Positions 13,935 through 17,281 of a stretch of DNA of 47,436 nucleotides are shown here, one piece after another. Location of the stretch: NCBI RefSeq assembly GCF_003932895.1, contig NZ_RQYW01000017.1, positions 1 through 47,436 of the forward strand. Direction: 5' to 3'. A program made the position numbers and the translations under genes. The notes beneath the pieces are model-generated. The model was not told the origin of the DNA. It saw only the letters and a list, made by a program, of their open reading frames with translations, and did no database searches. The number at the start of each line of letters is the position of its first letter. Within the stretch, counting starts at the first letter, position 1. Source of the stretch: Leptotrichia sp. OH3620_COT-345. Its GTDB lineage: Bacteria > Fusobacteriota > Fusobacteriia > Fusobacteriales > Leptotrichiaceae.

Positions 13935-14333
13935 ATGGAACTTAGAGATATAAAGGAACTGATGAAGATATTAAAACAGGAAGAAATGGCTGAAATGAAA
14001 GTTAGATATGGGAAAATAAAGCTTGTATTGACTAATTCCGAAATATCTTCAAAAGAAACACCGCAGGAAACAAAAAGAATAGGAACATCTGAAAAAATAG
14101 AAAGTACAATCAAAGAGGAAGTTATAAAATCTCGAAATGTGGGTGAAATAATACTCGAAAGACTTGAAAAAGGAATGGAAGTTTACAAAGGTATGAAATT
14201 AGCAAAGATTAGAACAATAGGAATAGATACTGACGTTAAATCTAATGTTGACGGCATATTAAAAGAAATACTCATTTCCGATCAGTCAACAGTGGACTAT
14301 GCTAAATCCTTATTTGTAATAGAAGTATTGTAA
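13935..14333 (+). CDS. accB: BCCP-like protein lacking the biotinylation site
   Basis: A 132-residue protein with the layout of the biotin carboxyl carrier protein of acetyl-CoA carboxylase: a short N-terminal helix region (LRDIKELMKILKQEEMAEMKV), a variable linker, and a C-terminal biotinyl/lipoyl-like domain (GMEVYKGMKLAKI...SNVDGILKEILI...LFVIEVL). The normal EAMKM hairpin is replaced without a gap by TIGIDTD, so the residue at the biotinyl-lysine position is Gly96. It cannot carry biotin in the usual way and has no lysine to carry lipoate there either. It directly precedes accC (54 bases). Either a second, functional BCCP exists elsewhere, or this is a regulatory or structural subunit. 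The accB symbol is by position and fold only. Confidence 0.75.
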   Translation: MELRDIKELMKILKQEEMAEMKVRYGKIKLVLTNSEISSKETPQETKRIGTSEKIESTIKEEVIKSRNVGEIILERLEKGMEVYKGMKLAKIRTIGIDTDVKSNVDGILKEILISDQSTVDYAKSLFVIEVL

Positions 14334-14387: not shown

Positions 14388-15743
14388 ATGTTTAAAAAAA
14401 TATTAATAGCAAACAGAGGAGAAATAGCAGTAAGAATTATAAGAGCGGCAAGAGAACTGGACATAAAAACCGTTGCAGTATATTCCGAGGCTGATGCGGA
14501 TTCATTACATGTGAAACTGGCTGATGAAGCGGTTTGCATAGGGCCTGCGAGTAGTGCCGATTCATACCTGAAAATTCCTAATATAATATCAGCTGCACAA
14601 ATAACGGGAAGTGAAGCTATTCATCCGGGATATGGATTTTTAGCTGAAAATGCTTCTTTTGCGAAAATATGTGCACAGAATAATATAGTATTTATAGGTC
14701 CGAAACCTGAATTGATTAACATGATGGGAGATAAAGCAACTGCAAGGGAAACAGCTATAAAAAATAAAGTTCCTATAACAAAAGGCTCTGACGGAATAGT
14801 TCCCGATGTGGAGGAAGCTAAGAAAATAGCTGAATGGATAACTTATCCAGTTATGATAAAAGCTACCGCTGGAGGTGGAGGAAAAGGAATGAGAATTGCT
14901 CATGATGAAAAAGAATTGACAGAAAATTTTATAGCTGCACAAAATGAAGCGAAAGCTGCTTTTGGAAATCCTGATGTTTATATTGAAAAATATGTGGAAG
15001 AGCCGAGACATGTAGAAATACAGGTTATAGGAGATAAGTTTGGAAATGTGGTACATTTAGGTGAAAGAGACTGTTCCATTCAGAGAAGACACCAGAAACT
15101 TATAGAAGAAGCACCTTCAGCAGGAATTGATGCAAAAACAAGGGAAAAAATGGGGAAATTTGCGGCAAAACTGGCAAAAGGCATAGGTTATGACAGTGTA
15201 GGTACTCTTGAATTTCTTGTAGATAAAAATATGAATTTTTATTTTATGGAAATGAATACAAGAATACAGGTAGAGCATACAATAAGTGAAGAAATAACAG
15301 GAATAGATCTAATAAAAGAGCAGATCAGAGTAGCAGCAGGAAAAGTATTGAGTTTTTCTCAAAAGGATATAAAGATAGACGGTCATGCAATAGAATGCAG
15401 GATAAATGCTGAAGATTCTGAAAACGGTTTTTTACCTTCATCGGGAACTCTTGAAAAATATATTCCTTCAGGAGGAATAGGAGTAAGAGTGGATTCACAT
15501 TCTTATCAGGATTATGAAATCCCTCCTTATTATGACTCAATGATTGCTAAACTTATAGTAAAAGGGAAAACAAGGGAAGAAGCCATAAAAAGAATGAAAA
15601 GAGCTTTAAAGGAATTTATAGTTGAAGGAGTAGATACTACGATACCTTTTCATTTGAAAGTTCTTGATAACAAGGAGTTTAATAAAGGAACAGTATATAC
15701 GAATTTTATAGAAACACATTTTAAAGATTCATCAGGGAAATAG
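14388..15743 (+). CDS. accC: Biotin carboxylase subunit of acetyl-CoA carboxylase
   Basis: A 451-residue ATP-grasp enzyme that carboxylates biotin with bicarbonate and ATP, the first half of malonyl-CoA synthesis. The N-terminus [29 protein letters not shown], the glycine-rich ATP loop [35 protein letters not shown] and the metal/bicarbonate region [12 protein letters not shown] are all intact. ATG 14388 is chosen over the TTG at 14376 because GGGAGGAG lies just before it. The length is typical. It forms an accBC-asp23-amaP-nusB row as in Firmicutes (compare B. subtilis accBC-yqhY-nusB). It appears fully active, in contrast to its BCCP-like neighbour. Confidence 0.95.
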
Positions 15744-15785: not shown

Positions 15786-16187
15786 ATGAACGAGTTAGGA
15801 AATATAAGTATATCATCAGATGTTGTTGCAACTATTGCAGAATCTGTAATAACAGAAATTGACGGAATATATAGTCTGGCAGGTAATGCTCCGAAAAATG
15901 AAATAACTAAGTTTTTCCAGAGTGTTTCTTCAACAGGAAATAAAGGAATTGATGTTGAAGTAGGTGAAACGGAGTGTACCCTTGACTTGTATATCATTGC
16001 AAAACTGGGATATCAGCTTCCGGCACTGGCAGGAGAAATACAGACAAAAGTAGTTAAAGCCATAACTGAAATGACAGGTTTGAAAGTACAGGAAGTTAAT
16101 GTCTATATACAAAAAGTGGTAAAAGATACTCATGAGAATCTTACCGAAATACCGGAACCTGTGGAAATAGCGGAAGAAAATAATTAA
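15786..16187 (+). CDS. Asp23/Gls24 (DUF322) family protein
   Basis: A 133-residue Asp23/Gls24-family protein. ISSDVVATIAESVITEIDGIYSLAG at the N-terminus and the later VQEVNVYIQKV segment are family hallmarks. In Gram-positives such proteins sit on the inner membrane face through AmaP, or, as YqhY, are linked to acetyl-CoA carboxylase; the accBC neighbourhood here points to the YqhY-like role, while the next gene (AmaP-like) points to the membrane-bound Asp23 role. A strong AGGAGGT ribosome-binding site precedes ATG 15786, 42 bases after accC. There is no signal peptide, so it is cytoplasmic or peripheral. The family call is firm; the exact job is inferred from neighbours. Confidence 0.88.
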   Translation: MNELGNISISSDVVATIAESVITEIDGIYSLAGNAPKNEITKFFQSVSSTGNKGIDVEVGETECTLDLYIIAKLGYQLPALAGEIQTKVVKAITEMTGLKVQEVNVYIQKVVKDTHENLTEIPEPVEIAEENN

Positions 16188-16202: not shown

Positions 16203-16847
16203 ATGATAACAATATTAGGCTTTTTAGCAAAACTGTCAGTAATAGCGGGAATTTTGGGGGCAGCTTTTGCAAGTGTATCTGATCTTATAATGAAAACGGA
16301 TTATTTGGCTAAATTTGATAATATGGTAGATTTGGGAAGTGTAAGAGTGAAAGTAATATTCGGATTACTTTCAATATTGTATTTACTTATATTTTTACTG
16401 TCATACATTAATAAAGTTACAAAATATTCTCAAAATAGAAAAGTTAAAACAAAAACCGGAGAAATAGAAGTTACTATAAAAACAATAAATGAAGTAGCAA
16501 AGGATTTTCTGAGTTCTCAGGAAATTATTAAAAATTCAAAAGTAAAATCTCATCCTAAAGGTAGGGCTGTAGTTATAGAAGCTGTTGTAGATACTTATAA
16601 TGTAGATAACTTAAATGATAAACTTTTAAAAATACAGGAAAAACTTTCCGAGTATGTGTTTAATTCTACAGGAATTTCAGTCAAAAAAAGTAAAGTTAAG
16701 CTGAAAAAAGTTTTAGGGGAAACAATTGTAGAAAAGAAAATAATAGAAGCACCTCAAGAAAGTAATGTGGAAATTGTAATGAATACGGAAGAAAAAATGA
16801 GTGAAACGGTTGTTCCGGAAACTGTCAATGAAGAAAAAATTGATTAA
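16203..16847 (+). CDS. amaP: Alkaline shock response membrane anchor protein (AmaP-like)
   Basis: A 214-residue protein with two N-terminal membrane segments (about 5-27 and 53-72) joined by a short loop, followed by a cytoplasmic domain (VKTKTGEIEVTIKTINEVAKDFL...KGRAVVIEAVVDTYNVDNL) that is itself Asp23-like, and an acidic, disordered tail. This is the AmaP (DUF2273-associated) layout, in which the protein anchors Asp23 to the membrane. It starts 15 bases after the Asp23-family gene and is certainly in the same operon, with nusB 29 bases on. The tail (about 180-214) is rich in Glu, Thr and Val and probably variable. Confidence 0.82.
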   Translation: MITILGFLAKLSVIAGILGAAFASVSDLIMKTDYLAKFDNMVDLGSVRVKVIFGLLSILYLLIFLLSYINKVTKYSQNRKVKTKTGEIEVTIKTINEVAKDFLSSQEIIKNSKVKSHPKGRAVVIEAVVDTYNVDNLNDKLLKIQEKLSEYVFNSTGISVKKSKVKLKKVLGETIVEKKIIEAPQESNVEIVMNTEEKMSETVVPETVNEEKID

Positions 16848-16876: not shown

Positions 16877-17281
16877 ATGACACGTAGAGAAATTAGAGAA
16901 GAAATATTCAAACTTCTTTTTGAAAAAGAACTTATTGACAATAATATCAATAAAAGAATTAACGAAGTAATAGAAGAAAATAAAATAAAAAAAGAGGAAC
17001 ATATTGAATTTTTAAAATCTTATGTTATTGAAATAATAGAAAATGAAAATTTTTTAATAGAAAAAATAAAAAATATACTGGATGGTTGGACTTATGAAAG
17101 ATTGGGAGTTCTGGAAAAAGTTTTGCTGAAAATATCCTTTTATGAAATTCTTATAAAAAAAATAGGGTATGAAATAGCAATAAATGAAGCTTTGGAAATT
17201 GCCAAAAAATACTCTTATGATGATACAAAGGAATTTTTAAACGGTATACTTGCAAAGTTGGTTATGGAAAATTTTATATAA
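16877..17281 (+). CDS. nusB: Transcription antitermination factor NusB
   Basis: A 134-residue all-helical RNA-binding protein that, with NusE (S10), binds boxA RNA to prevent early termination in rRNA operons. TRREIREEIFKLLFE at the N-terminus, WTYERLGVLEKVLLKISFYEIL in the middle, and AINEALEIAKKY...FLNGILAKLV at the C-terminus match the family. The length is typical. It is the last gene of the accB-accC-asp23-amaP run; the same synteny is known in Firmicutes. The following 216 bases carry no clear intrinsic terminator, only a short CTTTCA/TGAAAG-type hairpin near 17430-17455. Confidence 0.9.
   Translation: MTRREIREEIFKLLFEKELIDNNINKRINEVIEENKIKKEEHIEFLKSYVIEIIENENFLIEKIKNILDGWTYERLGVLEKVLLKISFYEILIKKIGYEIAINEALEIAKKYSYDDTKEFLNGILAKLVMENFI

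Follow-up and report, generated by a model that had tools for sequence, protein, structure and literature searches.

A lysine-less BCCP paralogue encoded beside accC in Leptotrichia and kept across Fusobacteriota, a candidate assembly subunit of acetyl-CoA carboxylase

The gene upstream of accC and its product

We analysed a window of 47,436 nucleotides from Leptotrichia sp. OH3620_COT-345, in which an open reading frame on the forward strand at positions 13935–14333 encodes a 132-residue paralogue of the biotin carrier protein (BCCP), identified by its translation, profile scores, a match to PDB entry 4hr7 and a structural model. The gene starts with ATG behind an AGGAGG ribosome-binding site and lies 54 bp upstream of accC (14388–15743), the sole full biotin carboxylase gene of the genome, which is intact (743 bits against the TIGR00514 cut-off of 626.5). 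An asp23/yqhY-family gene (15786–16187; PF03780, 92 bits) begins 42 bp downstream of accC, and is followed by genes for an AmaP-like membrane anchor (16203–16847; NF033218, 68.7 bits, cut-off 55) and for NusB (16877–17281; TIGR01951, 92.9 bits, cut-off 88.4). These genes all run on the plus strand, are separated by 15–54 bp and have good ribosome-binding sites. A promoter scan of the row gave matches not above shuffled expectation, and no terminators were found inside it; the first gene and accC apparently share one operon. An earlier note on this DNA, made from the letters alone, had placed the gene directly before an intact accC in an accBC-asp23-nusB row, and this order is borne out, with amaP as an addition between asp23 and nusB.

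Codon 96 of the paralogue is GGA (14220–14222), two base changes away from a Lys codon. The hairpin that in AccB carries the biotinyl-lysine within E-x-M-K-M reads RTIGI here (14211–14225), and in a profile alignment to E. coli BCCP (PDB 4hr7), which extends over the whole length of the protein (profile positions 1–135 to 4hr7_B), Gly96 falls without a gap on the K of EAMKM. The translation, this alignment and the position of the residue in the structural model all agree with the earlier placement of Gly96 at the lysine site. The protein scores 25.9 bits with the AccB/BCCP equivalog model TIGR00531, below its curated cut-off of 115.2, and 21.9 bits with PF00364 (Biotin_lipoyl; gathering cut-off 22.1), rising to 22.1 bits, over the cut-off, in a six-frame search. 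With a score under the equivalog cut-off and without the lysine that defines the family, the protein does not qualify for the name AccB; we refer to it as Gly-BCCP.

The AlphaFold2 model of Gly-BCCP (pLDDT 76, core near 89) has a biotinyl-domain fold, encoded by 14112–14330. Structural comparison of this core (residues 57–132) gave a Z-score of 12.7 to 4hr7_G, the BCCP chain of the E. coli complex of biotin carboxylase (BC) and BCCP. Residues 95–96 form the tip of a beta-hairpin between strands 88–94 and 97–102. At the tip of such a tight turn Gly (or Asn) would be expected once the lysine has become dispensable and the fold is retained. The core is preceded by an AccB-like N-terminal domain (13935–14036) with a helix (residues 3–15) and a beta-hairpin (20–25/28–33), delineated by the secondary structure of the model, the full-length match to 4hr7_B and conserved columns such as E20 (96%) and K29 (93%); by inference, it corresponds to the region through which BCCP is tethered to biotin carboxylase in related systems. 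A variable linker (14037–14111), with the highest column entropy and pLDDT under 50 over much of its length, joins the two. Near the C-terminus, alignment columns and motif counts identify VDYA (14292–14303) as the V[ED][YF]G motif of accC-adjacent BCCPs, which is lost in the lysine-bearing partner AccB discussed below.

The earlier statement that all surrounding domain residues are kept holds in part. The N-terminal domain, the S..VG segment, G80, G86, G107 and the V[ED][YF]G-like C-terminal motif are retained, but P-M before VG, TFY after VG and the C-I-V-E-A strand preceding the lysine are gone, and the 'thumb' insertion is missing from the Leptotrichiaceae copies. The swinging-arm fold leaves room for a modified carrier, in which another lysine near the hairpin would be biotinylated or lipoylated, or the Gly hairpin would hold a different group. 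This is very improbable, since the hairpin has no conserved lysine nearby (positions 94–97 have none, and the most frequent, at position 102, reaches a fraction of 0.62) and the Glu and Met of the ligase recognition motif have disappeared too.

Conservation and partner BCCPs in Fusobacteriota

The source genome (2.5 Mb, Leptotrichiaceae, 99.6% complete) encodes four biotin/lipoyl domains: Gly-BCCP, a canonical AccB with the sequence EAMKLMNE encoded behind folD, an acyltransferase E2, and a small GcdC-like carrier whose gene is part of a decarboxylase row. Gly-BCCP shares 27.8% local identity with this AccB. The genes accD and accA adjoin each other, accC is present in a single copy, and there are two birA genes for biotin protein ligase (G000:C2:132175-132864 and G000:C21:30024-30704), one of them about 8 kb from the GcdC-like carrier. 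The second accB, birA, accA and accD for which the earlier note had proposed to search are thus all present, and with the complete gene set Gly-BCCP is an extra BCCP, not a broken AccB. Since a normal biotinyl carrier is encoded in the same genome, there is no need to invoke the biotin-independent use of AccC that the note had also considered.

We surveyed the phylum with a profile built from 38 members of the Gly-BCCP family. The gene was found in all 81 Fusobacteriota genomes with full-length accC and, in the loci read, lies directly upstream of accC except at contig ends (one copy, in G087, is split by a contig end). Each of the 73 distinct accC-adjacent sequences has Gly at the lysine position, although the hairpin around it varies (TIGI, TMGI, TVGV, VMGL, AVGV), and core residues of the biotinyl domain (S66, G70, G86, G96, G107) are conserved. 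A scan with the Leptotrichiaceae alignment returned six Leptotrichiaceae/Leptotrichia loci and two ordinary Bacteroidota AccBs. A lysine AccB is encoded elsewhere in 79/81 accC-bearing genomes, often behind folD, and the two exceptions are assemblies of 82% completeness. The row in question often runs folD, an ACT-domain gene, accB (L146, L147, L150-L152), the ACT gene being a possible regulator.

Fusobacteriota genomes without accC have neither BCCP, apart from a few incomplete assemblies (G025, G052, G061). Small Leptotrichiaceae genomes lack accC, AccB, the Gly-BCCP gene and accD altogether, and genus g14 has lost the first three and retained accD in nearly complete genomes (G016, G017, G018), which hold a carboxyltransferase gene without its biotin carboxylase half. 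The Gly-BCCP gene is free of stops and frameshifts and is under strong purifying selection (dN/dS ~0.09 against two congeners); it evolves faster than that of its partner, with a mean core entropy across the phylum of 1.77 bits versus 1.03 bits for AccB. The conservation, the loss together with accC and the dN/dS are the signature expected of a functional subunit linked to AccC.

These data bear on the possibility of a decaying or artefactual AccB, in which the biotin site had been lost and the gene persisted by chance, or in which the Gly were an assembly error. The weak match to the AccB model (25.9 bits) could be read in this way; with an invariant Gly, the low dN/dS, an intact frame and retention across the phylum, its probability is negligible. 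Sequencing error or decay is ruled out by the conservation, Gly being present in all 73 homologues, in line with the earlier view that the change is not random decay. The same note went on to suggest a BCCP paralogue that lacks biotin and has a structural or regulatory role in acetyl-CoA carboxylase, a suggestion supported by the separate AccB, the purifying selection and the presence in every accC-bearing genome.

A possible division between assembly and carriage

The V[ED][YF]G motif is a feature of ordinary accC-adjacent AccBs, occurring in 51/54 lysine BCCPs from outside the phylum. Among Fusobacteriota it is kept in 72 of the 73 Gly-BCCPs and in none of 44 lysine partners, which have VKKG or IKKG instead (Fisher p 1e-31, with counts that are not independent, the sequences being related). 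Some Fusobacteriota have second accBC pairs, with an accC of their own, in which lysine and motif are both kept. One copy with the carrier site and another with the V[ED][YF]G surface fit a split of the jobs of a single AccB, and the motif may dock on AccC. In E. coli, the Glu of the motif has been linked to recognition by the biotin ligase, which counts against a role in docking; a search of the open-licence literature for the E. coli ligase-recognition mutants E119K/E147K returned nothing relevant.

The same profile was run over ~290 other bacterial genomes, a sample biased to sequences resembling Gly-BCCP, and matched mostly ordinary lysine BCCPs. The best 66 non-fusobacterial sequences comprise 58 with Lys and eight without (six Gly, one Asn, one His), the latter spanning at least six bacterial families. 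Six of these genes immediately precede accC, the exceptions being the Asn and His copies. Seven of these genomes encode a second BCCP with lysine elsewhere (EAMKVMNE, EAMKVFNE or ESMKVMNE; fused to a longer protein in two cases), and in the eighth a small decarboxylase-type carrier alone was found besides the lysine-less copy. All eight lysine-less copies have the C-terminal motif (one without the final G, two with W for Y/F), against none of ten partner BCCPs. Two families, f61 and f202, have two BCCPs that both bear lysine, which looks like an intermediate state. In a tree from 146 columns the fusobacterial Gly copies group together with an SH-aLRT of only 79% and four changes are needed for the other Gly copies. 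Repeated loss of the lysine across families seems likely from this tree but is not proven by it; a single origin of all lysine-less BCCPs, with which the tree is also compatible, is not favoured.

We propose that Gly-BCCP has no catalytic part in the biotin carboxylase complex but serves as a subunit for its assembly or docking, much as BADC does in plants, and assign this reading a probability of about 0.58. Made next to AccC, Gly-BCCP would be a permanent, non-biotinylatable component of the biotin carboxylase half of acetyl-CoA carboxylase (ACC), binding AccC through its AccB-like N-terminal domain and a core surface with V[ED][YF]G, and filling the docking places that in the E. coli BC-BCCP tetramer are occupied by the ordinary AccB core. 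The AccB with the lysine, made from its separate locus, would move between AccC and AccAD as the mobile carrier. Assembly and CO2 carriage, the two tasks of a single AccB, would in this way be divided over two genes, as they are in plants between BADC and BCCP. The comparative evidence directly establishes the paralogue, its missing lysine, the conservation, the second AccB and the way in which sequence features are divided; binding to AccC, the stoichiometry and the effect of Gly-BCCP on the enzyme are what we infer from it. Points against the proposal are the relatedness of the sequences counted, the modest support for the Gly clade and the faster sequence evolution of Gly-BCCP relative to AccB. 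The E. coli BC-BCCP tetramer is held by four BCCP cores, placed so that the biotin is ~40 angstroms away from the active site, and two BC dimers of Chloroflexus are joined by four BCCP hairpins (PMC11077971). Structural places of this kind could be filled for good by a BCCP lacking biotin, and the biotinylated AccB would then be free to shuttle.

In its broadest form, the proposal would describe a bacterial two-BCCP ACC, with Gly-BCCP for docking and assembly and AccB as mobile carrier, that is universal in Fusobacteriota making malonyl-CoA with AccC. It would have arisen more than once in other families by a common route, in which the lysine copy moved away, the copy beside accC lost its lysine and the relocated one lost V[ED][YF]G. 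We consider the odds of this extended version to be about even.

Plant BADC lacks the AMKL motif, has 25–30% identity to BCCP and aids BC-BCCP assembly, with an inhibitory role also proposed, and has been called unique to the plant enzyme (PMC11926652). Gly-BCCP likewise is a BCCP paralogue without the AMKL biotinylation motif, has a comparable identity to its own AccB, coexists with a biotinylatable BCCP and a biotin carboxylase (in its own genome and in the 79 genomes noted above), and comes from a genome encoding a heteromeric ACC. It differs from BADC in being bacterial, in its place beside accC, in the absence of a transit peptide and, in Leptotrichiaceae, of the thumb. The two are probably of independent origin. 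By its sequence characters Gly-BCCP is BADC-like, and may be said to work like BADC, not to be BADC. Non-biotinylated subunits of this kind have until now been described from plants alone, and Gly-BCCP appears to be their bacterial counterpart; we found no bacterial non-biotinylated BCCP or BADC in the open-licence literature. With bacterial AccB (TIGR00531; E. coli BCCP, PDB 4hr7 and 1bdo) it shares the fold, the N-terminal domain, the place before accC and V[ED][YF]G, but it has neither the biotinyl-lysine nor EAMKM and scores well short of the family cut-off. A further parallel is offered by BC1 of Chloroflexus aurantiacus with its fused BCCP beta-hairpin, an N-terminal hairpin as the structural element joining BC dimers (PMC11077971), although the BC1 polypeptide itself bears biotin whereas Gly-BCCP is separate and has no biotin site.

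The main rival to the assembly or docking reading is a competitive brake, in which Gly-BCCP would occupy AccB places on AccC and lower ACC activity, the rate being set by its ratio to the lysine AccB. Its anatomy would be identical, the two BCCPs, being encoded at separate loci, could have their ratio tuned, and plant BADC was itself first read as an inhibitor from in vivo work (PMC11926652). However, a gene fixed in an apparent operon with accC would be expected to keep its product at a constant ratio to AccC; its occurrence in every genome that has accC, and its loss along with accC and AccB, fit a core subunit better than an optional regulator; and the motif split suggests that the lysine AccB depends on the other copy. 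We regard the brake as possible but rather unlikely.

Less likely still is a regulatory or transcriptional role outside the enzyme, in which, for example, the N-terminal domain would autoregulate the acc row or the protein would be coupled to YqhY/Asp23. AccB autoregulation has been reported for E. coli and counts in its favour, as does the operon with asp23 and amaP. In B. subtilis, YqhY limits ACC activity (PMC5437119). Against this, Gly-BCCP has no DNA-binding domain, the conserved biotinyl core would be needless for a purely N-terminal role, and, in the stretches examined, the lysine-less copies of other families stand in efp-accB-accC rows in which no asp23 was detected. The tie to a YqhY-type Asp23 protein that the earlier note had raised is therefore weak and not specific; it is weakened further by the lysine AccB genes in accBC-yqhY operons, as in Bacillus subtilis (PMC5437119).

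The accBC-yqhY neighbourhood is reported to be conserved in Fusobacteria, but that account treats the gene as accB (PMC5437119), and the fusobacterial copy lacks the biotin lysine. What appears to be a textbook ACC operon thus has an 'accB' that cannot carry biotin across the phylum, including human oral Leptotrichia, and work on essentiality, drug targets or metabolic models that treats the Gly-BCCP gene as BCCP aims at the wrong gene. If the assembly function is true, non-catalytic BCCP subunits would be a recurrent way of building heteromeric ACC and not a plant peculiarity, and the motif split would amount to a natural mutagenesis experiment separating the assembly surfaces of BCCP from its carrier surfaces.

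Further BCCP and accC arrangements

In two other families of the phylum, f3 and f4, the sole lysine AccB-type BCCP is fused to the end of a ~600-aa pyruvate/oxaloacetate carboxyltransferase-like protein (L148, G063:C1:445500-449500; G064:C94:1961-2419), and one AccC may serve two carboxylases in genomes of this type. A comparable fusion of BCCP and a carboxyltransferase-like protein occurs in two genomes from other phyla (G239 and G376).

Some Leptotrichia (L143, L144, L145; G071, G079) carry, next to a pxpA (5-oxoprolinase)-like gene, a second accC, and beside pxpBC-like genes a second BCCP that keeps both EAMKLMNE and VEYG. One further accB-accC pair (L142, G044:C2:1445000-1452000), located beside aminopeptidase-like and SerA-like genes, is unlike the phylum's own copies and looks acquired or contaminating.
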